Shown here: positions 3,454-53,397 of the stretch, piece by piece
How the letters are laid out: the number at the start of each line of letters is the position of its first letter
How positions within the stretch are numbered: the stretch's first letter is position 1
Virus record (IMG/VR): IMGVR_UViG_3300044673_000327
Coordinates: 21,289 to 85,288 of that record
Source: a virus
Length of the DNA stretch: 64,000 nt
Strand: one strand, 5' to 3'
Notes under the pieces: model-generated
Databases searched by the model: none
Seen by the model: the letters and a program-made list of their open reading frames with translations, nothing else
What the model was told of the DNA's origin: nothing
Translations under genes and position numbers: made by a program

Positions 3454-4044
3454 TTATTGAAAAGCTCCTTCTAAAGCAATATTATCAATAAATATTTCTA
3501 CCAATCCGATAGGTGAATATGTAAATACGGAGAACCCTAATGTTTGAACAGGTATATTTTGTATCGAGAACCAAGAACCTAATAACGATCGCCATCCGAT
3601 TGTGGGTGAAGAGGTTACGGGTAATTCGGCAATTATCAGGTTATTTAAATAAAACCTAATAAACACTACTAGAGGATAAGAATTCCCAAGAGCGGCAGAA
3701 CAAGAAACCCTTATCCATCTACAGTTATTAGGGATAGAGACAGATTGAGTTAACATCATCGGATTGGTTTGTGGGCTACCAACCTGAGATCCGAACGCTT
3801 GCGCTCCGTTGGGATAGGGCGTGGGTATACCAAAATCGTTATTCCCGTTAAGGATAACTGTATTGTTGTAAATTCGATTCCATCCTGTAACAGCATTAAC
3901 GTATTGAAAGCTATTAGTCGATATGACATCACTCTCAAAACTCCCATTTGCGATCGGGATATTTGCGTTGATAAAATTGCCGACAATTGTATTAACCGAA
4001 CCAGTTCTCCTACTCCTTAACTCCATTCCTCTCATCGCTAACAT
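3454..4044 (-). CDS. putative adhesin / fibre-associated jelly-roll protein
   Basis: The 196-residue product is beta-rich and ends with a pattern typical of carbohydrate-binding jelly rolls: NGSFESDV...VTGWNRI near residues 33-57 and FIDNIALEGAFQ at the C terminus. No catalytic motif is seen. It is the last gene of the (-) fibre block and its start overlaps the stop of the next upstream gene by one base, so they are translationally linked. A receptor-binding or decoration role is inferred from context. Confidence 0.6.
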   Translation of the reverse strand: MLAMRGMELRSRRTGSVNTIVGNFINANIPIANGSFESDVISTNSFQYVNAVTGWNRIYNNTVILNGNNDFGIPTPYPNGAQAFGSQVGSPQTNPMMLTQSVSIPNNCRWIRVSCSAALGNSYPLVVFIRFYLNNLIIAELPVTSSPTIGWRSLLGSWFSIQNIPVQTLGFSVFTYSPIGLVEIFIDNIALEGAFQ

Positions 4045-4472: not shown

Positions 4473-5138
4473 CTAAATGGGTGTAAAGTTATTCGTGTAC
4501 TTAGCGTATCCTCTATAAACCCGAAGATCATCCATCTGTCCTCGCCATCTCCAGTTGGGTGTATTAGCGTCGGGGGTTCCTCCTATCTGTACTGTCGTCG
4601 TATTGTTATTGTAAGGTGTATTATTTGCTAGACTACCCGCAAAACTACCGTTTCTATAAATATTAATAACCCCGCTGTATTTAACGATAGCTATATGTGA
4701 CCATTCATTTAAAGGTATCGAGGAGTTAACAATGGTAAAGTAATTACCGTTAATTACCCATACAAGTTGTGATGCGTTCATTAAAAACATCCAACTATAT
4801 CCGGAGATAAATTGGTGTTTCGATATAACTACATTCCAATCCTGACTCCACGCTGCAGGTCTCAACCAAACCTCAATTGTAAAGTCCCGATCGGTAAAAC
4901 TAAAATCGTCACCGGCTAGGGAATTTATATTAATAAAGTTATTACCATCGGTAAATTGTCCGCTACTCGTTCCGTTTCTAAAATTGGTAGTATTTCTTGT
5001 AACACCATTGTTACTAGAAGCACTGGTTTTTGGAAATGGGGATGTATCGAGAGCGGGGTTAGCTGTCTCAAATAATAACTCGTAACTCGCTGGTGGATGA
5101 ACTATTGTACTGTACAACTCCCTTAATCCGATCGTCAT
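4473..5138 (-). CDS. LamG / concanavalin-A-like fibre protein
   Basis: Residues about 70-221 form a LamG-type jelly roll. Diagnostic stretches are FTIEVWLRP, a WSHIAIVK strand, the GVINIYRNG turn and the terminal MDDLRVYRGYAKYTNNFTPI. These domains bind glycans, so a role in host-surface recognition is likely. The N-terminal 50 residues include YSTIVHPPASYELLFE, often seen before phage LamG modules. It follows the repeat-type fibre gene by one base (5140) in the same transcript. Confidence 0.75.
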   Translation of the reverse strand: MTIGLRELYSTIVHPPASYELLFETANPALDTSPFPKTSASSNNGVTRNTTNFRNGTSSGQFTDGNNFININSLAGDDFSFTDRDFTIEVWLRPAAWSQDWNVVISKHQFISGYSWMFLMNASQLVWVINGNYFTIVNSSIPLNEWSHIAIVKYSGVINIYRNGSFAGSLANNTPYNNNTTTVQIGGTPDANTPNWRWRGQMDDLRVYRGYAKYTNNFTPI

Positions 5139-5139
5139 C

Positions 5140-6123
5140 TTAAATCCCTCCCGCTAATAACATGGCTTGAATATCGGCTAGTAAATTAATCTGTTGCGTT
5201 TCGCCTATCCCGCTAACAATACTCCACCTATTCGTATGGAAAACCAACTCAACTCCCTGTCCCCCTCGATCTAATACCAGATTCGTATTCCCGACGATAT
5301 TGTGTCCCGTATTAGCGGTAATCGTGAGAGGATTAACCCCAAATCCCGTGAGTAGAGAGGAGTTGTTAAAATCGGCTACCTCGATGACATCCCCGTTATT
5401 TGGAGAGGCGGGAAGAGTGAGAGTGAATGAACCGCTAGAGGTGTTACAGAGATAGCGGGTATTAGATACAGCCGTGGTGTTTGTGGTGATGACGGATGTG
5501 GTGAGGGAAGATCCACCCCCGGCACTTACATTCACCGTAACAGCACCACCGCTATTCGTGGCGGTTACTCCAGCACCCGTGAAGTTGAAAGATGTGGCGT
5601 TAGATGTGAGCGTTGTACCCTCGTCCTGTACGGTGATAGCGGAACCTCCACTAGATACCGTACTCCACGTACCATCTCCTCTTAGATAAGTTGTATTATT
5701 CGCTGTTCCTGTAGCGGAGAGTTTCGGAATCGTTACCGCTCCATCGGCTATTTTACTCGTGCCGATCGCCCCGTCCTGTATTTTGTCCGAAGTTACGGCG
5801 TTACTGGCTATTTTGGTTGCCGTCACCGACGCGTTGGGAATTGCCGTCAGATAATTCGCGTCGTTGGTAAAAGCCGATACGTTACTCGGGAAGTTCTCCC
5901 ACGTCGCCTGTCCGTTAGTGCTGGAGGACTTGCGGAGGTATTGCCCCGTCGTTCCCCCCGATGGCAACCCGAAGATCCCGTTGAGTATCCAATCCCTGAT
6001 CCGAGTCAGGGTGAGTTTATAGGTAGCGGTATTCTCTACCTCCGATTCCACGAGTTCGTTCCCCGAGATGGAACCGGGTAGGGCATCGTAATCGGCTATT
6101 GTTTTATAAACGGGATCGGTCAT
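5140..6123 (-). CDS. tail fibre protein
   Basis: The sequence has the hallmarks of phage fibres: an N-terminal attachment-like stretch (TIADYDALPGSISGNELVESE), collagen-like GLPSGGTTGQYLRKSS, trimeric-coil repeats (ASNAVTSDKIQDGAIGTSKI, then DGAVTIPKLS) and a glycine/threonine-rich beta region from about residue 150. The C-terminal 60 residues are beta-rich (GHNIVGNTNLVLDRGGQGVELVF). It is the first gene of the 3454-6123 fibre operon. It probably acts in adsorption with the LamG and jelly-roll proteins downstream. Confidence 0.8.
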   Translation of the reverse strand: MTDPVYKTIADYDALPGSISGNELVESEVENTATYKLTLTRIRDWILNGIFGLPSGGTTGQYLRKSSSTNGQATWENFPSNVSAFTNDANYLTAIPNASVTATKIASNAVTSDKIQDGAIGTSKIADGAVTIPKLSATGTANNTTYLRGDGTWSTVSSGGSAITVQDEGTTLTSNATSFNFTGAGVTATNSGGAVTVNVSAGGGSSLTTSVITTNTTAVSNTRYLCNTSSGSFTLTLPASPNNGDVIEVADFNNSSLLTGFGVNPLTITANTGHNIVGNTNLVLDRGGQGVELVFHTNRWSIVSGIGETQQINLLADIQAMLLAGGI

Positions 6124-12638: not shown

Positions 12639-12924
12639 AATAACTCACACATCTTTGCGATACGGAGAAGTTTCGGATGAAACCGAATATTACGCTAGAG
12701 ATGAATCGGAACGAGACGAGATCGTGACCCACCTTCTCGATCGCGCTAAAAACGCGGGAGACATAGAGTATTCACTGGAAGATAAACCCTGTAAACCTAC
12801 CGATCGATGGGATAGAGTTTACTGGACTTTTGAAACAATAGACTTACCGAAATGGGGATATACTATTCGTGTAAAAACGATTCACTTCGGATTAAATAGA
12901 AATGAGTTGAGTTTTAATCTATAG
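12631..12924 (+). CDS. hypothetical protein, 97 aa
   Basis: Not recognised. It is an alpha/beta soluble protein with a helical acidic centre (DESERDEIVTHLLDRAKNAGD) and a C-terminal beta segment (GYTIRVKTIHFG). Its start lies inside the preceding gene. The last 11 bases overlap the C5-methyltransferase gene on the opposite strand. Confidence 0.62.
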   Translation: MYKITHTSLRYGEVSDETEYYARDESERDEIVTHLLDRAKNAGDIEYSLEDKPCKPTDRWDRVYWTFETIDLPKWGYTIRVKTIHFGLNRNELSFNL

Positions 12925-14056
12925 GCAACCATCCCTCGGGAAAACCCATCATCATCCGAACGAATTCGGGATTGAGTTTATCGTTATGTTTACGATCGGT
13001 GTAGGGTACTCTCCAAGGTACGAGAGCGTGGGGGAGGTGTTTATTATTACCGGGTTTCCAACTCCTATGACCGGGATGAATCGAATTACAGGAGAGAGGG
13101 GTCGGTAAATAAAATTTATCCTTGACCCGAACGGGATCGCCCCATTTGGAGGATTGAAAGATAGGAAATTGTCCGAACACGGGACTTAATACACCTTCGG
13201 ATGGCATTAATCCGAGGTCGCTTAAGCGATGTGTTTGAATAAAACTCGCCCTGTAAAATACCTCTTCTCGATCGTGTAGATGTTTGTGAAATCTCTTCCA
13301 TACCCGACTCGCCACCCGCGGGACGATCGCGTTACCGTAGGCTTTCAGATGCGCTTTACGGTAGGGTTTATCCTCGGTATCGCAGGAGATGGGCAAGTAG
13401 TTCTCTAATCCCTCGTGGGTTAGCAGAGACCTCTCGATAAGAGGAGAGGAAGGAAGGAAAGAGTTTTTATTTTTCTCTTTAGTCGTGGGTAGCGCGGTTC
13501 TCGGGGTAGTGTCCGCGCGGTATCCCAGAACCCAGAATCGTTTTCTCAAGTGAACCGCCCCCACCTGAGCGGCGCTGTAATGCCCCCACTCGATCACGTA
13601 GGGCGTATCGAGGGCGCACAGCTTTCTAAGAAAGTTCTTAAAATATTGTCCTTTCTCGGAAGTACGGAACCCGGCGACGTTCTCCAAGAGGAATCCAGAA
13701 GGCTTACATTCTCCGACCAGACGGATAAACTCGTCACCGAGATCCCGTTCGTCCCCGCTCCCCTTGCGGTAACTGCCCGACGCTTGAGAGTGGGGCTGAC
13801 AGGGGATAGAGGCTTGAATGATGTCGTATTCCCCCTCGGATAGGGATACCTGTCGCACGTCCCCGAGGACGGGTTTCTTGAAGTTCTCGGACAAAACACG
13901 AGAGCAGAACGGGTCGTTATCGCAATAGGTCGTGACCTCGTAGCGATCGTCCAGACCGGAGTGAATCAGTCCGAGGGTAAAACCGCCGATACCGGAGGCG
14001 AGATCGAGAACGCGGTAGGGCTGGTGGAGAGAGGGATTGGAGCGGGGAGACGGCAT
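12914..14056 (-). CDS. C5-cytosine DNA methyltransferase, rearranged motif order
   Basis: Motif I is DLASGIGGFTLGL (18-30), motif IV has the catalytic Cys in IPCQPHSQ (84-91), motif VI is LENV (124-127), and motif VIII is HLRKRFWVL (169-177). Motif X (AYGNAIVPRVA, 239-249) comes before the target-recognition region and before the LNPEFVRMMMGFPEGW block (361-376); in most family members that order is reversed. The segment at 193-210 (NKNSFLPSSPL) is encoded by a copy of the purine-rich dispersed repeat. A class C element ends 21 nt before the ATG, so it is expressed like virion genes. Likely role: protecting phage DNA from host restriction. The target site cannot be read from sequence; CGATCG within the abundant GCGATCGC octamer is a reasonable guess. 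Confidence 0.9.
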   Translation of the reverse strand: MPSPRSNPSLHQPYRVLDLASGIGGFTLGLIHSGLDDRYEVTTYCDNDPFCSRVLSENFKKPVLGDVRQVSLSEGEYDIIQASIPCQPHSQASGSYRKGSGDERDLGDEFIRLVGECKPSGFLLENVAGFRTSEKGQYFKNFLRKLCALDTPYVIEWGHYSAAQVGAVHLRKRFWVLGYRADTTPRTALPTTKEKNKNSFLPSSPLIERSLLTHEGLENYLPISCDTEDKPYRKAHLKAYGNAIVPRVASRVWKRFHKHLHDREEVFYRASFIQTHRLSDLGLMPSEGVLSPVFGQFPIFQSSKWGDPVRVKDKFYLPTPLSCNSIHPGHRSWKPGNNKHLPHALVPWRVPYTDRKHNDKLNPEFVRMMMGFPEGWLPID

Positions 14057-21061: not shown

Positions 21062-22009
21062 TTACCCGTCTTTATTAGTATTCCTGTGTTTGCCCGTGGC
21101 GATTAAACCGACCGTCGCTCTAGACACCCCGTAAAGTTTGGCGATCGCCCCCTGTGTCATCGCTCGGGCTTCCCATATCTTGCGAATTTCTTCTACCTGT
21201 TCGTCTGTCAACTTGCACCGAGGATTGTTCTCTCCCGCTAGTAACCCCTTTCGGACTTGTTTGTTTCGTTCGATAACTTTATCCGGGCGGGAAACTCCTT
21301 TCGCTCGAAGAATTCTTTCTACAGTTCCGATCGATAATCCCACCACATCGGCTATTTCTCTACTAAAACAGCCATCTTGCCGCATCGAGATTATTGTTTC
21401 AGCGATCGCTTCATTAGTTCTAACACCTGTATTGAAATGCTCTTTAACTTTCTTGTTCAGGATTCGCTCGAAATAGTCACGGCTATTATCCTGATGGGTT
21501 CCGATTTCGAGGTGGTCGGGATTAATGCAAAGTTTATTGTCGCATTTGTGACGTATTAGCTTTTCTTTAGGAACTGGTTCTTTAAAAACCTCGTAGCTTA
21601 ATCTATGGGCTTGCCATATCTTGCCGTGATAACCGATGCTTCCATATCCCGCGCTGGTAACTCCACCAATCCAATTCCAACAATCGGTTTCACGATCGAT
21701 TACTCGTTTCTGTTTTAGTCGAACTTGAATAGATTCTCCTCGGTGACGTGGGCGATCACCTAAAACTAAATGCTCTGGGTTAACACAATGATTATTTTTA
21801 CAGGTATGGTTGACGATCTTTCCCTCGGGAATAGATTCAAGTTCGTTATAAATGCAATACGAGAGACGATGAGCCATTACCGTTTTTCTGTTGATATGCG
21901 TCGTTCCAAACCCATCCCAATTGATAGCGGCTATCCAAAGCCAGCATCCATCGGGATCGGAACGCTTGTCGATCTTGGAATGAAACCGATCTACAATTTC
22001 CTGTTTCAT
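21062..22009 (-). CDS. HNH homing endonuclease, tandem HNH plus HTH
   Basis: Two similar HNH_3-type units are seen. Unit 1 has CWLWIAAINWDGFG, AHRLSY, NHTCKNNHCVNPEHL (about residues 22-82). Unit 2 has CWNWIGGVTSAGYGS, AHRLSYEVF, RHKCDNKLCINPDHLEIGTH (about 109-171). Two helix-turn-helix segments follow (SREIADVVGLSIGTVERIL and TQGAIAKLYGVSRATVGLI). It makes a double-strand break at its target and spreads by repair. It is inserted at the capsid 3' end: its stop abuts the displaced capsid fragment, and the current capsid gene ends in a recoded copy of that fragment. The G+C-poorer flanks and a separate terminator mark a transferred element. Confidence 0.88.
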   Translation of the reverse strand: MKQEIVDRFHSKIDKRSDPDGCWLWIAAINWDGFGTTHINRKTVMAHRLSYCIYNELESIPEGKIVNHTCKNNHCVNPEHLVLGDRPRHRGESIQVRLKQKRVIDRETDCWNWIGGVTSAGYGSIGYHGKIWQAHRLSYEVFKEPVPKEKLIRHKCDNKLCINPDHLEIGTHQDNSRDYFERILNKKVKEHFNTGVRTNEAIAETIISMRQDGCFSREIADVVGLSIGTVERILRAKGVSRPDKVIERNKQVRKGLLAGENNPRCKLTDEQVEEIRKIWEARAMTQGAIAKLYGVSRATVGLIATGKHRNTNKDG

Positions 22010-44963: not shown

Positions 44964-45722
44964 TCACCCCGCGACTTTCTCCAATCGCTCGATCACTCTC
45001 TCCACCCTCGGATCGATCTGTGACGGGGGAGTGAAAAAGCGATCGCCCGTGAAGGTGTTGTAGTCTTTCGAGAGTTTATCCGTCCACGTTCTCTCTTTTC
45101 TGTCGTCGTCGGAACTATCCATCTCGTGAATAACCCTACGGCACGAGGAATAAAGAACCGCGTCCTCCACCCAACGATCGAAAGTGAGGGCTTTATCTTT
45201 CGGGTTGGATAGACGGGCTTTCGCTTCCTCGAATAATTTCTCTAGGGCGGGAAGACTGTTATCGAAATCCACCCGATCGATCGATACGTTCAATCCCTTC
45301 AACCTCGCCATCATCTTCCAATAACGCACCACCCTCTCGGATTTGACCTGAGAGAATCGGATCGGGTGATGTTTATCGCGGACGTACTGGAGGATAGCCC
45401 CTCGAATACAGGGATAGGCGAAGGTAGAGAAACGATTACCCGTACTCGGATCGTATCTCTCGATCGCTTTGGTTAATCCCATCACTCCCTCGTGGATAGC
45501 GTCGGTCTCGTTTCCTTTGAGACAGTTGAACGCCTCTCCTTTAAAGGAATGGAATACCTTGAGAACGAGGTTGTAGTTATTCATCAGGATCGTCTCTCTC
45601 ATGTCGAGGGGACGATCTCGATCGATATATTCTTTCCAATATTCTAGATCCGTTCCCGATTTAGAGATCTGGATTAGATCTATTTCTCTTAAGCCACTAT
45701 GTAAACCCTTCGGTGATGGCAT
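44964..45722 (-). CDS. phage RNA polymerase sigma factor (region 2)
   Basis: Residues about 42-130 form sigma-70 region 2: LMNNYNLVLKVFHSFKGEAF (2.1), AIHEGVMGLTKAIERYDPST with GNRFSTFAYPCIRGAILQYV (2.2-2.4, which bind core polymerase and melt the -10 region). A recognisable region 4 is not obvious; the C-terminal 110 residues are helical and charged and end in RVERVIERLEKVAG. It should redirect the host polymerase to phage promoters. It has an AGGA ribosome binding site and lies upstream of the class C-driven virion operon on the same strand, but has no class C element itself, as expected for a gene needed before late transcription. Confidence 0.82.
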   Translation of the reverse strand: MPSPKGLHSGLREIDLIQISKSGTDLEYWKEYIDRDRPLDMRETILMNNYNLVLKVFHSFKGEAFNCLKGNETDAIHEGVMGLTKAIERYDPSTGNRFSTFAYPCIRGAILQYVRDKHHPIRFSQVKSERVVRYWKMMARLKGLNVSIDRVDFDNSLPALEKLFEEAKARLSNPKDKALTFDRWVEDAVLYSSCRRVIHEMDSSDDDRKERTWTDKLSKDYNTFTGDRFFTPPSQIDPRVERVIERLEKVAG

Positions 45723-46255: not shown

Positions 46256-46723
46256 ATGGTAGAAGGAAAAAGCAAAGTCGGTAAGATCGTTATCGGCAAT
46301 ATCCGGAACCTCTCCCCGCTCGTGGGGGTAGAAGACGTGTATATGGAGCGGGAGAACAAAGGGATTCTCGCCAATCCGTTCGTGTTGATCGGTGATAACC
46401 CGAGCGATCGGGATACGGTGATCGACGCGTTCCGGTTGTACTTTAACGGGGTGTTATCGATAACACCCGAGGATCGGGGATGGGATCTTCAGATCGATTT
46501 CATGAAACTCGCTAAAGACATGACTGAAAGACTCAATCCCGAGAGAGCTTTTCGATTAGCCCGAATGGGTATCACGACCCCGAAGTTAATTCACGAGGCG
46601 TTAGATATCCTAGAGGTTAAACTAAAAGCGGGGCAGGATCTGCGGTTCGTGTGCTGGTGCGATCCATTGCCGTGCCATACCCATATCGTTCGGGATTATT
46701 TACTTAAAAGGTTGGAGAAATGA
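46256..46723 (+). CDS. DUF4326 family protein
   Basis: The 155-residue protein has the family's hallmarks: an N-terminal NIRNLSPLVGVEDVYMEREN stretch with ANPFVLI, and near the C terminus the CWCDPLPCHTHIVRDYL motif (CWC-x-P-x-PCH). The conserved Cys/His set suggests metal binding or catalysis; the biochemical role of the family is not established. It starts a run of small overlapping (+) genes and is the first gene after a class B leader. Confidence 0.78.
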   Translation: MVEGKSKVGKIVIGNIRNLSPLVGVEDVYMERENKGILANPFVLIGDNPSDRDTVIDAFRLYFNGVLSITPEDRGWDLQIDFMKLAKDMTERLNPERAFRLARMGITTPKLIHEALDILEVKLKAGQDLRFVCWCDPLPCHTHIVRDYLLKRLEK

Positions 46724-46998
46724 GAGAAGAATCCAAGTCATTAGGGAACAGTACCACGAAACTATTTATCGATCGATGGATAGTCGAGTGTATTCAAGAC
46801 ACGGGGGTTATTTTATTCGAGCTTGAACCCGATAACTGGAAATGGAAGTATACCGCTTGCGGTACTACCTTTCAGTGTCATGGCGACTTCGATACCGCGC
46901 TCGATGCTCTACACGATTTTCTATCTCTTCTGGTTTGCAACACTCGGGATGTAGAAATGTTTAATATCCTTTGTTCTCAAGAGGAGAGCGGAAAATAA
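46720..46998 (+). CDS. hypothetical protein, 92 aa
   Basis: Not recognised. It is a small alpha/beta protein (VECIQDTGVILFELEPDNWK, then DTALDALHDFLSLLV). The ATG overlaps the TGA of the DUF4326 gene (ATGA), so the two are translationally coupled. Confidence 0.62.
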   Translation: MREESKSLGNSTTKLFIDRWIVECIQDTGVILFELEPDNWKWKYTACGTTFQCHGDFDTALDALHDFLSLLVCNTRDVEMFNILCSQEESGK

Positions 46999-47048
46999 AA
47001 CTGAATCGATAACGACCGCGCTAGAAGCTTTCGAGGAGTTTTGATCCT

Positions 47049-47375
47049 ATGACACAATTTCGCTTAATCGGTAACGCTACATGGATATACGAGTTATGTT
47101 ACTCGGTAAAAAAGGTAGCAGAGGATGAACACGGACGCGTCAACGATATATTGGAGGACAATCTTACTTTCACTAATACGGTTGTCGGGGACTGGAGTTC
47201 TTCCAAGTTCGAGGCTCTTAATAGTTACAATATCGGATTCTCTAAATCGGGTGATAAATGTTTGGCACTCGCTAAAAAGCGACGGGATTTTATAGAAACC
47301 GAATTCGGAAGTATTCTTGTTTTCCGAATTACCGGTATTACTGTACATTACACGGAGATAGAGGAAAGAGAATAA
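47049..47375 (+). CDS. hypothetical protein, 108 aa
   Basis: Not recognised. It is a mixed alpha/beta protein with a C-terminal FRITGITVHYTEIEERE strand-helix. CGAGGAG precedes the ATG with good spacing. It sits in the same small-gene operon. Confidence 0.62.
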   Translation: MTQFRLIGNATWIYELCYSVKKVAEDEHGRVNDILEDNLTFTNTVVGDWSSSKFEALNSYNIGFSKSGDKCLALAKKRRDFIETEFGSILVFRITGITVHYTEIEERE

Positions 47376-47376
47376 A

Positions 47377-47826
47377 ATGATCACCGTATACATCGGCTTC
47401 AAAGAAACGGGACTATCCCCGTATAACTTTCAAGATTGGTTTAGAAAATATCGAAGCCTCTTCAGCGACATCGAGGATAAACCCGTCGAGTTTCCAGAAG
47501 AGATGACGTTCGACGAGAAGATGATCTGTCGGGTGATTCATTTCTATGTAGGGAAGATAAAACTCGTCCGAACCTCTTCTCCCGCGATAAGTGGATTGCT
47601 CGATATGTTATCCCCCGAAGCGATCGCTTTCATCGTTCGATCGCTCGTGGAAATAAATAACCTGACGATCTATACTAATAATCCTACGGTTGTCACTTGG
47701 TTTTTGGTTAGAGCGAATAACGTAACGGTATTCGATAAAGGCAAAGAATACTCGAAAGAGGTTATCGAGTCCGTCTATCACGGATGTATAGACCTATCTA
47801 TCGGAGAGATCGATATTAACCCATGA
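47377..47826 (+). CDS. hypothetical protein, 149 aa
   Basis: Not recognised. The C-terminal half (DMLSPEAIAFIVRSLVEINN, then LTIYTNNPTVVTWFLVRANN) faintly recalls the end of ABC/SMC-type ATPase domains, but no Walker motif is present, so this may be chance. The start follows the previous stop by one base and the end overlaps the next gene by four. Confidence 0.6.
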   Translation: MITVYIGFKETGLSPYNFQDWFRKYRSLFSDIEDKPVEFPEEMTFDEKMICRVIHFYVGKIKLVRTSSPAISGLLDMLSPEAIAFIVRSLVEINNLTIYTNNPTVVTWFLVRANNVTVFDKGKEYSKEVIESVYHGCIDLSIGEIDINP

Positions 47827-48230
47827 ACAAATACACGCTCTACTGGAAAGCGGGGAAGAAGGAAACGATAGAGGGGAACGATCTACGTGACGCTCTCGAA
47901 CGGGCGGGATACCCCGAAACGGTACTCGTATCGATAAGTCATGTATCTTTGGACGAGAACGATTACTGGTGGGATTCGGAACGGAAATGTTGGTCGCTTA
48001 ATAATCCCGAGTCTAAACCCCCGATCGATCTCAAAACGATCAAGCGGGTCGAGTACGTGTACGAAGAAATCCGTCGGTATAAGTTTATTACCGAGGTTCC
48101 TTTCTCGATGGAGACCGAAGAGATGGAAGATCATTTCGAGAACCTATTCGCCAACAATAAAGAGTTGTTTAAGAGCGCGGAGTTTATCGAATCCTCTACC
48201 CAACTCGATAATTTCTCGGTATTCGATTAA
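47823..48230 (+). CDS. hypothetical protein, 135 aa
   Basis: Not recognised. It is a charged soluble protein; residues 1-40 are beta-rich (YTLYWKAGKKETIEGNDLRD) and the C-terminal half is helical and acidic (MEDHFENLFANNKELFKSAE). It ends the 46256-48230 operon. Confidence 0.6.
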   Translation: MNKYTLYWKAGKKETIEGNDLRDALERAGYPETVLVSISHVSLDENDYWWDSERKCWSLNNPESKPPIDLKTIKRVEYVYEEIRRYKFITEVPFSMETEEMEDHFENLFANNKELFKSAEFIESSTQLDNFSVFD

Positions 48231-48282: not shown

Positions 48283-48302
48283 GTTGGGTTAGCCCTTCGG
48301 GG
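48283..48302 (+). promoter_or_regulatory. degenerate class A element
   Basis: GTTGGGTTAGCCCTTCGGGG, lacking the T-run. It lies 110 nt upstream of an intact copy and has no gene directly after it. Confidence 0.45.
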
Positions 48303-48412: not shown

Positions 48413-48435
48413 TTTTTTAGGTTAGCCCTTCGGGG
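48413..48435 (+). promoter_or_regulatory. class A leader element
   Basis: It ends AGGTTAGCCCTTCGGGG, 33 nt before the ATG at 48469, with TTATCGGTGGGTGG upstream. Confidence 0.65.
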
Positions 48436-48468
48436 GGTATAGGAATAATTGAAGATAAAGAGGTGATT

Positions 48469-50136
48469 ATGAATCGTATCGCTAATTTAATCCCGAGGGG
48501 GGCGAATGTTTATTCGAGAAATCCGGTCGCCGCGGTTTTAACCAACCCGACGGAACTCGCCCGATCGCTCGGCACGATCTCCCATCCGTACCCTCTGTAT
48601 AGTACGGATGGGCGTTTATTTCTCGATGTGGATACGGCTTATATCGATACTCTCAAACCCCGTTTCACTCAACCTTACGACGATCGTATGGTGAACGGGA
48701 TGGCGAGATTGAACGCCGCCAAGTTTCGGAGTAACCCCGAGTTATTAGAAATGGTTGAAGCTTCGGCGGGACAAGCTGGATTAGACCCGGAATCCTTTTT
48801 GCGATCGCTCCGGCACGAGGTAGTCGGCAACAAGTTCTGGGAAACCCCATCCCGTAAAGCTCCCGATGGAATGTCGGGGGCGATCGAGGCTTTAGCGAGA
48901 GGGTACGGTATGGCGAGACAAAACCCCGATTTATCCCTGCCATCCGGCAAGGTCATCTCGGTTCATCTTCCTCAGCCCCAGCATCCCGTGAATCGGGCGA
49001 AACAGAAACCGCTCGGTGTAGACGAAGGTGTAGCCGATTGGATAGCGAATCGTGACCCCGAGGGTTTGATTTTATTCGGGGATAACTATATCGGTAAGGG
49101 GAAAGCGGGTCAGGCGATTATCCGGGATAAGGATATAGCCGTAGGGATACCGACCAAGAAACTCCCCGCGATGAGTCCCGATTCCTTTCTCTACGATGAA
49201 GATCTCGACGAGTATATCCGACGGGTCAGCCCGACAATCGAGCGCTTACAACAGCATCTCGATCGCGGGGGGAGATTGTACTTCCTCTCCACCGGTATCG
49301 GTACGGGGTTAGCCGTAGCCCGTAACGGACGCTCTCAGAAACGGGTAGGGGATTGGTTGGCTAACCGTCTATACGAACTCGGAGTACCCGAATCGATTAT
49401 CGGTAATCCCCTCGGTGGTTCACTATCCCGTCAGCCCGTCGTCGCGAGTCACGTCGTGTCTTTCGCTAGTCCCAAGATGGAGAGTAATTCCGTGAATAGA
49501 ACGGCTAATATTAGCATCCCCGAATGGAATCCCGAACCCTATTTATCGGGGGGTAAGGTGCTGATGGGAACGGGTCATCGTCCCGACAAACTGGGAGGCT
49601 ACGATATTTATCCCTCGACCCTTAACAAGCTCACCGATCTGGCGGGCAATTATCTAGAAGAACTCGAACCCGATCGGGTGGTATCGGGCATGGCTCAGGG
49701 ATGGGATAGCGCGTTGGCGATCGCCGCTATCCGTAAGGGTATCCCGTTGACCGCGGCTGTCGCTTTCGATGGGGTCGAGAAACGTTGGACTCCCGACGCT
49801 CAACGATTATTCCACCGTATTCTCGACAAGTCCGATAACGTGCGGGTTGTCGGTAATACGGGAAGCGGTCGGAGCGCGGGGCAACTACTTAACGATCGCA
49901 ATCTCTGGATGATCGATAACTCTTCCGGGGTTCTCGCCCTCTGGAACGGGACATCGGGGGGAACGGCTAATGCGGTTCGAGACGCTATCGGTCGCGATAA
50001 GCCTATCCTCAATCTCTGGGATGAGTGGCGGGGAAAACCTACCCCGATCGTCGCTAATCCGATCGCTCCCACTCCTACCGATTCCCGTCCCGGTTTCGGT
50101 AACTGGCAAGTCACCTATTACGGGAAACCGAAATAG
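48469..50136 (+). CDS. macro-like / SLOG fusion, predicted nucleotide binding
   Basis: Three parts are visible. Residues 1-160 are a helical unknown domain. Residues about 195-300 hold LILFGDNYIGKGKAGQAIIR, DIAVGIPTKKLP and FLSTGIGTGLAVARN, a macro-like Rossmannoid domain of the kind that binds ADP-ribose-type ligands. Residues about 365-530 are a SLOG (DprA/YspA-like) domain: MGTGHRPDKLGGYDIYP, VVSGMAQGWDSALAIAA, a W-x-P-D-A-Q-R-L-F-H segment, RNLWMIDNSSGVLALW and GTSGGTANAV. SLOG domains bind nucleotides or ADP-ribose derivatives. It is a class A early-type gene. Binding or removing a host signalling nucleotide is a testable guess. The start is ATG 48469 with AAAGAGG upstream; a GTG lies two codons earlier. 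Confidence 0.65.
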   Translation: MNRIANLIPRGANVYSRNPVAAVLTNPTELARSLGTISHPYPLYSTDGRLFLDVDTAYIDTLKPRFTQPYDDRMVNGMARLNAAKFRSNPELLEMVEASAGQAGLDPESFLRSLRHEVVGNKFWETPSRKAPDGMSGAIEALARGYGMARQNPDLSLPSGKVISVHLPQPQHPVNRAKQKPLGVDEGVADWIANRDPEGLILFGDNYIGKGKAGQAIIRDKDIAVGIPTKKLPAMSPDSFLYDEDLDEYIRRVSPTIERLQQHLDRGGRLYFLSTGIGTGLAVARNGRSQKRVGDWLANRLYELGVPESIIGNPLGGSLSRQPVVASHVVSFASPKMESNSVNRTANISIPEWNPEPYLSGGKVLMGTGHRPDKLGGYDIYPSTLNKLTDLAGNYLEELEPDRVVSGMAQGWDSALAIAAIRKGIPLTAAVAFDGVEKRWTPDAQRLFHRILDKSDNVRVVGNTGSGRSAGQLLNDRNLWMIDNSSGVLALWNGTSGGTANAVRDAIGRDKPILNLWDEWRGKPTPIVANPIAPTPTDSRPGFGNWQVTYYGKPK

Positions 50137-50769: not shown

Positions 50770-53397
50770 ATGAGCCAAGCCAAATACGTTCCGACCGAGA
50801 AGTTTATTCCCCGTCGGTTCCGATTCAACTCGTCTACAGAAGGCGAGTTCGTGGATCTCCCCGTGGAATTATGCACTCAATACCGCCACACTCTCTTTCA
50901 GGCGATGCACGGGAACGTGGATGACGTGATTCTCGTCGATTGTTCCAAGCTCACCTCCGATGACAAGGGACGGGAGATTAACCCCGACCTTGTTACTCAA
51001 GCACTGACCGACAACCTACCCGATGGATACCGCCTAGACGGGGCTACGGGTAGCCGGAAGAAAGGTCAGGTATTCGCTACCTCCCGTAAGGGAAAGACCT
51101 ACTCCGAACTCTACCTATCCGGTTCCAAGCGGGTATCCCATTATTCGATGCTCTGGAGCGAGAACCGGGCGATCGTTAACCTCTCGAATGTCCGTGTCGT
51201 GGTTCTCGATGATGCCGATTACGAACTGCAAGTAGAAATTGGAGTCGGTGATTGTCACGGTCTAATCGGTCACTCTCTTCATCAAGCGATCGTCGAAGCA
51301 TCAGATCCTTTTCTCAAGTCCCCGATCGATCCTCGGGGGATGCTCCAGTTCCGTCTAGCCCTCAAGTCCAAATGGTGCGCGAAGGGTACGACTCTACCCC
51401 TCGGTGGTGAGTTGGAATTCAAGGGGGAACCCGTCGATCTGATTCTGCCCGCTTCCTCGTTCAAGGGTTCATGTCCGAAGCTCGGTAAGGTTCACGAGTA
51501 CAAATCTCTGTACTTCGGGATCTATAAAGTCTCCCGCACCACCCGGTACTCTACCTCCCATACCGTGACGGGTTGGTTTCAATCCGAGGACTCCAAGAAG
51601 TTTCTTCTCGACGCGGCTCGCGAGGAGATGGAAACCCTGATCGAGAAACGCAAGGATGTCCGCAAGTTAGCCGTTCACTACCTCGATCGCACCGTGGGAA
51701 CGGTTGACGGGGAACTGTCCGACGACCCCGAAGAACGTATCGAACAGGAGAAGAAACTAGCCTTCTGCTCTTACGCCCGTATCTTGAGTAAGGACACTTA
51801 CAACCAACTCGCCCTACACCCGAAAACGAAGCAGTGGGCGAACCAGATTACCGCTAATCTAGTCAAGGATATAGCCCTCGGATCGTTCATTCGCGCCAAG
51901 GGTTCGATGTTAGCCCCATTGCCTTTCCTCAAGGGCGATACGGTTATCTCTCACGATTTACCGACGGGACAGTACGTCTATTGGCGATACCCGATCAGGG
52001 CTTACAACGACATCTTTAAGGTGTACGTTATCAACACAAGAGATTTGCGTTGTCGTCTCGAACGCTATCTCGGGTACTTTACCGATCTCAATCTTCTCGA
52101 CTCGATTTATTTTCAATCTCTCGTCAACTCCGATCTAACGGGAACGGCTTGGGTTTCTCCCTCCGTCGCCCGTAAATCAGCCGCCGATTATGACGGTGAT
52201 TACGGTTGTTTCATTCCCTGTAGCGAGATCCGTCCTCTTGCTGACGAGATCGATACTTGGCAGGAATTACCCGAACCGGTCAAACCCCCGAAGAATCCGA
52301 TTAACGGTTCCCTCGAATCCATCGCCGCCAAGTCGATGTCTAACAAGGTAGGTCTGATTTCCTACATCATCACCTGTTGCCGTATCCTCGGGTGGAAGTT
52401 TCATTACCCCAAGTTAGCGGAGGCTTTACAGACGGAAGTAGACGGTCTAAAATCCGAGAACCCCGTGGATTGGGCTTACGTTAACGATGTTCTAAAACGA
52501 ACGGGTAGCGCGTTTAAAGAAGCGGAGAAGAAGGGAATTCAGGCGTGGGTACGTTGTTACAAGCATCCCGATCTCTATACCCAACGCCCCCTTGTCTCCC
52601 ACTACGACGATATAATCTCCAAACTCTGCAATCTAACATCGGAGATGTGGGAAAAAGGAATCGACCCCGATGACATCTCCCCGTTCCAGTGTCGTTCTAC
52701 TCACGACTTCCGTTGTCTATTCGATCCCCTCGTTCCCTACGAATCGATTCCTAAAGAGTGGTTTCATCGGGCGGGCGATTGGGTTTACGAGTACAAGAAG
52801 ATGTTAGGAGGTGTCCTAAGAATCAAGAAAGAACGCATGACAGTGACCGAGATCGAGGAGTTCCGTCAGGGACTCAAGGAGATAGGCGACCACTTTAAAC
52901 GCAAAGCCGATTCGATCACCAATCCCGCGTCCAAGCTTAAGTTCGCCGCCGCCATGCACCGTGTCCTGCACGATCGCCCCAAGCCCGGCGAGGACAATTC
53001 GGAACGGATCTGCTCTCTGGTTTTTCAGATATTCCCCGACGAGTATATTCGAGCGCTCTCGACCCCTCCCAACTATCAATTCCGGTTGTGGAGAAATTGC
53101 GAGAAAGCACCTTCCGATCTAGGGGATAAGGTATTCAATAACGAGATCGTTCCCGTCAAGATCACTAATACCCGATTCACCGTTAACGGTCAGGAGGTGG
53201 ACGCGCTCTATATGGTCGAACTGCACACGGGTAAGAAGGTAGCCCGTGTTGTCACCGATAACATGGCGGGGTACGTCTCCCTGCCCCTACCCGAGACCCG
53301 TCTCGTGGTCAAGGTCAACTCGGTATTCAGCCCGAGTAAGAAGACCTATACTTATCACGAAGCTCGTGTAGTTCCCGAAGAAGCTCTAGAGTTCTAA
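50770..53397 (+). CDS. single-chain double-psi-beta-barrel RNA polymerase
   Basis: An 875-residue protein. The catalytic loop of the beta'-like barrel is SAADYDGDYGCF, with DYDGD at 473-477, matching the D-x-D-G-D of multisubunit RNA polymerase beta' (NADFDGD) and of single-chain relatives (YonO, QDE-1). About 65 residues before it lies YWRYPIRAYND (404-413), the equivalent of the barrel's R-x-P strand; after it comes SMSNKVGLISYIITCC, matching the G-x-I helix that follows the barrel in that family. A Lys-rich segment (LALKSKWCAKGTTLP, 196-210) may be the second barrel. The size is close to that of YonO. It should make RNA from phage DNA without host subunits. Start ATG has AAGG upstream. Confidence 0.78.
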   Translation: MSQAKYVPTEKFIPRRFRFNSSTEGEFVDLPVELCTQYRHTLFQAMHGNVDDVILVDCSKLTSDDKGREINPDLVTQALTDNLPDGYRLDGATGSRKKGQVFATSRKGKTYSELYLSGSKRVSHYSMLWSENRAIVNLSNVRVVVLDDADYELQVEIGVGDCHGLIGHSLHQAIVEASDPFLKSPIDPRGMLQFRLALKSKWCAKGTTLPLGGELEFKGEPVDLILPASSFKGSCPKLGKVHEYKSLYFGIYKVSRTTRYSTSHTVTGWFQSEDSKKFLLDAAREEMETLIEKRKDVRKLAVHYLDRTVGTVDGELSDDPEERIEQEKKLAFCSYARILSKDTYNQLALHPKTKQWANQITANLVKDIALGSFIRAKGSMLAPLPFLKGDTVISHDLPTGQYVYWRYPIRAYNDIFKVYVINTRDLRCRLERYLGYFTDLNLLDSIYFQSLVNSDLTGTAWVSPSVARKSAADYDGDYGCFIPCSEIRPLADEIDTWQELPEPVKPPKNPINGSLESIAAKSMSNKVGLISYIITCCRILGWKFHYPKLAEALQTEVDGLKSENPVDWAYVNDVLKRTGSAFKEAEKKGIQAWVRCYKHPDLYTQRPLVSHYDDIISKLCNLTSEMWEKGIDPDDISPFQCRSTHDFRCLFDPLVPYESIPKEWFHRAGDWVYEYKKMLGGVLRIKKERMTVTEIEEFRQGLKEIGDHFKRKADSITNPASKLKFAAAMHRVLHDRPKPGEDNSERICSLVFQIFPDEYIRALSTPPNYQFRLWRNCEKAPSDLGDKVFNNEIVPVKITNTRFTVNGQEVDALYMVELHTGKKVARVVTDNMAGYVSLPLPETRLVVKVNSVFSPSKKTYTYHEARVVPEEALEF

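Follow-up and report, generated by a model that had tools for sequence, protein, structure and literature searches.

A three-domain phage protein joining NADAR-like, DUF7831 and SLOG domains that may act on ADP-ribose derivatives

The stretch of DNA analysed here (the window) comprises bases 21,289–85,288, 64 kb, of an IMG/VR virus contig of 85,288 bases. One unbroken open reading frame (ORF) on its + strand encodes a protein of 555 residues, P0001 (Table 1). The gene is preceded by a ribosome-binding site, GAGGTG, at 48460–48465; the ORF-calling program placed the start at an in-frame GTG at 48463, and the ATG at 48469 lies further in. Profile comparisons show P0001 to be composed of three predicted domains: a NADAR-like domain, DUF7831 and a SLOG domain of the YpsA/DprA type. 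A sequence-only reading of this gene had described two domains, a Macro-like one fused to SLOG; the SLOG part is confirmed below, the middle part belongs to DUF7831, and the N-terminal NADAR relative had been missed.

The phage probably infects a cyanobacterium, since among the matches listed its terminase comes closest to the one from Synechococcus phage S-EIVl (40% identity over 91%; 25% for the next match) and since the octamer GCGATCGC, which we take to be the HIP1 repeat of cyanobacteria, is present in 26 copies where base composition predicts about 1.0. A gene for a DUF4326 protein, about 1.7 kb upstream of P0001, opens a co-directional cluster (46256–48230) that ends before the P0001 gene. 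Other genes of the window include, on the − strand, an EAL domain of the cyclic-di-GMP phosphodiesterase type, here in a phage (1856–2803; Pfam 8.7e-24), a C5 cytosine methylase (12914–14056; 3.6e-34) and an HNH endonuclease (21062–22009; 2.3e-16). Downstream of P0001, an 875-residue ORF (50770–53397, +) matches PHROG_34895 (1.4e-20), finds no match in a PDB sequence search and contains the stretch ADYDGDYG, which resembles DxDGD, a motif of one-subunit RNA polymerases. ARTs of the phage's own, invoked in the sequence-only reading, were not found by Pfam in any of the 38 window ORFs scanned; a search for ART-PolyVal gave no match anywhere, controls included, and is uninformative.

Table 1. Features of the P0001 locus (window coordinates)
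Feature	Position	Strand	Basis
DUF4326 gene	46256..46723	+	Pfam PF14216 4.8e-9, above cut-off
Ten GGTWAGCCCTTCGGGK copies	28817, 29192, 29980, 31741, 32821, 35122, 36588, 48287, 48420, 50325	+	
Gene of the predicted three-domain protein P0001	48469..50136	+	Single ORF, GAGGTG ribosome-binding site
Putative NADAR-like N-terminal domain, residues ~1–155	48469..48933	+	tblastn relatives, alignment A5, hhalign
DUF7831 domain, residues ~184–311	49018..49401	+	Pfam PF25176, match 196–283
SLOG domain (YpsA/DprA type), residues ~364–520	49558..50028	+	PHROG_289, profile against PDB

A leader ahead of the gene, as had been suggested, finds support in a repeated 16-mer. The sequence GGTTAGCCCTTCGGGG occurs exactly at 48420–48435 (+), 33 bases ahead of the P0001 ATG, and a second copy at 48287–48302 (+) is without the upstream T-run. 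With up to three mismatches allowed, the 64-kb window holds ten copies, all on the + strand, against 0.82 expected and a maximum of five in 100 shuffles. The GGTWAGCCCTTCGGGK copies are mostly preceded by a T-run and mostly followed, about 10 bases on, by TGTAAT. A TGTAAT-like hexamer (at most one mismatch) lies within 26 bases of eight of the ten, compared with 9.2% of random windows; the two copies without such a hexamer include the one nearest the P0001 gene. Of the 20 IMG/VR stretches that carry the exact 16-mer, none has a second exact copy. The 16-mer is taken here as a putative phage-specific promoter or leader element. GGTWAGCCCTTCGGGK can fold as a CCC-UUCG-GGG hairpin and may serve as promoter, leader or both; a sigma-70 region 2 protein encoded at 44964–45722 (−; 3.1e-12) is a candidate reader of the repeated 16-mer.

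The N-terminal domain escapes family searches. Pfam finds nothing in residues 1–164, even at E≤10, and the cut-off of the NADAR family (PF08719) is not reached; N-terminal queries have no relative in IMG/VR, and among phage records residues 1–164 retrieve two rows only, at E 0.7. A tblastn search of plasmids matched 11 records: four from Variovorax (~1e-9), six cyanobacterial (4e-4 to 0.1) and one from Aminobacter (0.1). The Variovorax relative itself scores E 0.093 and 13.4 bits against Pfam NADAR (cut-off 35.1). The alignment of the domain with these plasmid relatives (A5) contains the motifs SAEQAYQ..K, AKFEQHP and WEGxG...FIRAL, which recall NADAR. Compared by hhalign with a NADAR profile of ten sequences, it gives a probability of 94.7% (E 5.9e-8, score 54.7, residues 48–124 aligned), or 90.9% when the window row is left out of the profile. 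One hundred column shuffles reach a maximum of 22.4 against the real 54.7, and the Macro, SLOG and DUF7831 profiles yield 0.2–0.6%. We conclude that the N-terminal domain is, by its sequence profile, a divergent NADAR relative.

NADARs remove ADP-ribose from guanine (PMC11543638, PMC11125620, as far as the consulted text of these papers goes). The catalytic pattern applied here asks for a spacing of seven residues between Glu and Lys and for an acid or His eight residues before a Trp. P0001 has D55 where Glu is usual and K63 at +8, one residue late; H116 sits eight residues ahead of W124. The consulted parts of the same papers give this eight-residue spacing for E125 and W133 of a solved NADAR, and Glu, Asp or, in phages, His as the residue eight before the Trp. 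The NADAR-like stretch of P0001 is homologous to one in plasmid proteins of the cyanobacteria Anabaena, Calothrix, Sphaerospermopsis and Chroococcidiopsis, where, unlike in P0001, it lies inside ORFs of 1336–1552 residues or more, at the locus edge, in which Pfam finds neither DUF7831 nor SLOG. Among viral DUF7831 ORFs, the NADAR-like plasmid profile matches one (L036), at 1.7e-5.

The middle domain matches Pfam DUF7831 (PF25176) over residues 196–283 with E 6.6e-21 and 74.8 bits, above the family cut-off of 27. DUF7831 is common as a stand-alone gene of about 120–140 residues. A tblastn search with the middle part of P0001 matches 90 phage records; the DUF7831 half of P0001 as sole query found no relative in IMG/VR. 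From IMG/VR, 164 candidate stretches for DUF7831 were collected, 139 confirmed and 80 kept, and in 21 of these 80 loci the domain lies inside an ORF of at least 955 residues. A search of viral structure models (BFVD) returned DUF7831-named proteins of giant viruses and phages, as well as very large proteins of phages whose 'cr' names we take to denote crAss-like phages. A literature search for DUF7831 found no paper in the library it covered.

For DUF7831, an AlphaFold2 model from 70 sequences has a mean pLDDT of 78, with a core above 90; a model of the whole of P0001 from its single sequence was set aside (pLDDT 33.5). The conserved DUF7831 loops GDN...GxGGQA and GIGTG are reminiscent of Macro domains, as is the succession of helices and strands. 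Foldseek gave no match of the DUF7831 model to the PDB at E≤0.001, its best rows being phosphatases. In VIA-align the top Z was 4.5, and Chikungunya virus (CHIKV) macrodomains, aligned over 112 and 115 residues with rmsd 4.6 and 4.8, reached Z 3.5, level with unrelated folds such as phosphatases and transaminases; Macro is missing from the clear fold matches of either program, an absence that is no evidence against a Macro fold. Of 33 Macro matches in genomes, the ones aligned over more than 100 residues were used to build a Macro profile. Against it, hhalign gives DUF7831 a probability of 14–16% and places GIGTG on the Macro ISTG loop; the score exceeds 99 of 100 column shuffles in one run (one was higher) and all 100 in another, and the SLOG profile scores 11–12 in the same test. 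A PDB search with the DUF7831 profile returned chance-level rows only, triosephosphate isomerases first (best E 0.054). Pfam finds no Macro (PF01661) in P0001 at E≤1 and none in the whole phage record at E≤0.001, a control search being positive in 8 of 14 genomes; the whole record also holds no NADAR by Pfam. Kinship of DUF7831 to Macro is thus suggestive, not proof: structure prediction, proposed with the sequence-only reading as a check, yielded a confident DUF7831 core and left the Macro fold not established.

Conservation within the family was examined in 16 phage DUF7831 proteins fetched by tblastn. The E and P of the EPN motif are present in 12 of the 16 and the N in 15; the EPNA conservation of 98–100% in other loci is inflated because those loci were fetched by patterns that hold EPNA. 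The DUF7831 of P0001 has neither an Asn present in 15 of these 16 relatives nor a Pro present in all of them. As EPN varies among the 16, no claim of a dead domain is made.

The C-terminal part of P0001 matches PHROG_289 (4.3e-9) and stays by itself below the Pfam cut-offs for DprA (23.3 bits, 29.6 needed) and YpsA (21.6, 27.7 needed). A PDB sequence search with P0001 alone gave no match. With a profile of P0001 and nine relatives (A2), the search retrieves a structure of YpsA (2nx2, 1.9e-8) as well as chains of DprA and ShosA (about 1.5e-5), significant profile matches that place the domain in the YpsA/DprA clade of the SLOG superfamily; among the seven PDB rows of this profile (YpsA, DprA and ShosA) there is no chain of the cADPR sensor ThsA. 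By tblastn, P0001 matches 171 phage records, none spanning more than 80% of the query, and the best 60 of the 171 rows all fall on the SLOG part. A joint alignment of both halves of P0001 was set aside, its consensus showing the two domain sets misaligned.

The same domains are linked repeatedly elsewhere. In IMG/VR, a 372-residue ORF (L091) carries DUF488-N3a, DUF7831 and a YAcAr SLOG: like P0001 it has DUF7831 and then SLOG within one compact ORF, but its N-terminal partner is DUF488/DUF4326-like and its SLOG is of the YAcAr family. A 309-residue ORF (L140) fuses the same SLOG subfamily as in P0001, YpsA, to NADAR, in reversed order, without DUF7831 and with a canonical NADAR above the Pfam cut-off. 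DUF4326 and SLOG occur together in L147 and are both annotated on one protein of Myxococcus phage Mx1, and on a Deinococcus plasmid the SLOG match falls on a protein annotated as NADAR. The NADAR profile matches the DUF7831-bearing ORF itself in 5 of the 80 IMG/VR loci (L028, L034, L036, L064 and L096); Pfam NADAR is just below cut-off in L028 and finds no match in L034, L036 and L064, and the ORF of L034 holds a cpYpsA SLOG as well. NADAR pieces lie on both sides of DUF7831 in L036 and of the cpYpsA SLOG in L034, an arrangement resembling the insertion of one domain into another. In Synechococcus phage MinM2 (L294), one same-strand cluster contains DUF7831 and, a few genes further along, a DprA-like gene by annotation (3459–3863, 4983–5384). 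No DUF7831 was found in 78 viral SLOG loci, and a compact fusion like P0001 is therefore rare in these samples.

Bacterial DUF7831 loci, mostly acidobacterial, show related neighbourhoods. By raw counts over 50 loci, which are not 50 independent cases since several acidobacterial contigs share assemblies, a YAcAr-type SLOG gene is present in 11, SSB in 20 and DUF4326 in 3, and two loci (L195 and L202) have the gene order SLOG, SSB, DUF7831, DUF4326. A block of SSB, DUF7831 and a protein of about 552 residues recurs in 20 of the 50 (acidobacterial loci within L188–L224), with several copies per assembly, and has the appearance of a mobile or repeated element.

Iyer et al. (2021, PMC7824862; 2022, PMC9503650) have described phage fusions and neighbourhoods that combine Macro, NADAR, SLOG and DUF4326, and the consulted text of these papers predicts that such phage combinations counter soluble ADP-ribose derivatives or immune signals. 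There, too, the same domain superfamilies as in P0001 are joined in phage proteins and gene clusters. In contrast to the architecture of P0001, DUF7831 is not named in the consulted text of PMC9503650 (0 occurrences), and the order NADAR-like, DUF7831, SLOG is absent from that of both papers, whose figures may show it. P0001 is a new architecture of an already predicted sort. New here are the NADAR-like domain overlooked by Pfam, the joining of DUF7831 to this network and the bacterial clusters of DUF7831 with SLOG and SSB.

In the reading that we favour, with a probability of roughly 0.4, P0001, whose single chain combines a NADAR-like domain of the N-glycosidase type with DUF7831 and a SLOG domain of the YpsA/DprA type, would recognise and clear ADP-ribose-derived small molecules, immune signals or toxins made by the host, by cleavage or tight binding, and the upstream DUF4326 protein would work on the same ADP-ribose-type chemistry. 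The proposal draws on the domain calls, the recurrent linkage, the published predictions, NADAR chemistry and the H116/W124 spacing; early expression is inferred, as are the ligand, the way the domains share the work and any benefit to the phage. The ADP-ribose link drawn in the sequence-only reading has gained from the domain resembling NADAR, from the DUF4326 gene upstream and from the linkage elsewhere. Counted against a clearing role are the altered NADAR motif (D55, K63), the Asn and Pro losses in DUF7831, the lack of ThsA among the A2 profile matches, of Macro and NADAR by Pfam in the record and of an ART in the 38 ORFs, and the SSB genes of 20 of the 50 bacterial loci, which point to DNA.

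Those SSB genes bear on the main rival, in which P0001 would remove ADP-ribose from nucleic acids and so counter a DarT1-type host toxin, the NADAR-like part acting as hydrolase and the SLOG part, like DprA, recruiting it to ssDNA. NADARs undo guanine ADP-ribosylation by DarT1 on ssDNA, according to the consulted parts of PMC11543638 and PMC11125620, and the SLOG half is DprA/YpsA-like, but the NADAR-like part has Asp for the catalytic Glu and a shifted Lys, and DNA binding is not demonstrated for YpsA-like SLOG domains; we regard this activity as rather unlikely. The altered residues in both the NADAR-like and DUF7831 domains would also suit a sponge that merely binds an ADP-ribose signal, these two parts being without catalysis, and one phage family, RyDEP, has sponge-type and enzyme-type members (PMC13232231, in its consulted part). 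The changes are, however, in part conservative, and phage DUF7831 proteins vary in EPN itself; such a sponge seems distinctly improbable. Least probable of all is a helper of DNA replication or recombination with a DprA/Smf-like SLOG and regulatory remaining domains, for which the DprA and ShosA matches, the bacterial SSB neighbours and the ssDNA-binding role proposed for DprA in jumbo phages (PMC7824862, consulted part) speak, but which the NADAR and DUF4326 partners suit less well than ADP-ribose chemistry and for which no recombination gene was identified adjoining the P0001 gene in the window.

Beyond the proposed clearance of host ADP-ribose derivatives by P0001 itself, a broader and doubtful extension can be put forward: DUF7831 would be a domain for handling ADP-ribose that is widespread in phages, giant viruses, mobile elements and bacteria. 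P0001 would then be a multi-step machine on a single chain, its NADAR-like domain, DUF7831 and SLOG together dismantling or trapping an ADP-ribose-based immune signal of the host, possibly one specific to cyanobacteria.

Several independent fusions, together with bacterial clusters, tie DUF7831, an unstudied family, to NADAR, SLOG and DUF4326. As one compact protein, P0001 is a practical probe of the ligands of DUF7831 and of viral SLOG domains. To our knowledge, the host side of ADP-ribose signalling in cyanobacterial antiphage defence has been little explored. If P0001 does clear an ADP-ribose signal, that would point to a part for such signalling in the antiphage defence of cyanobacteria.
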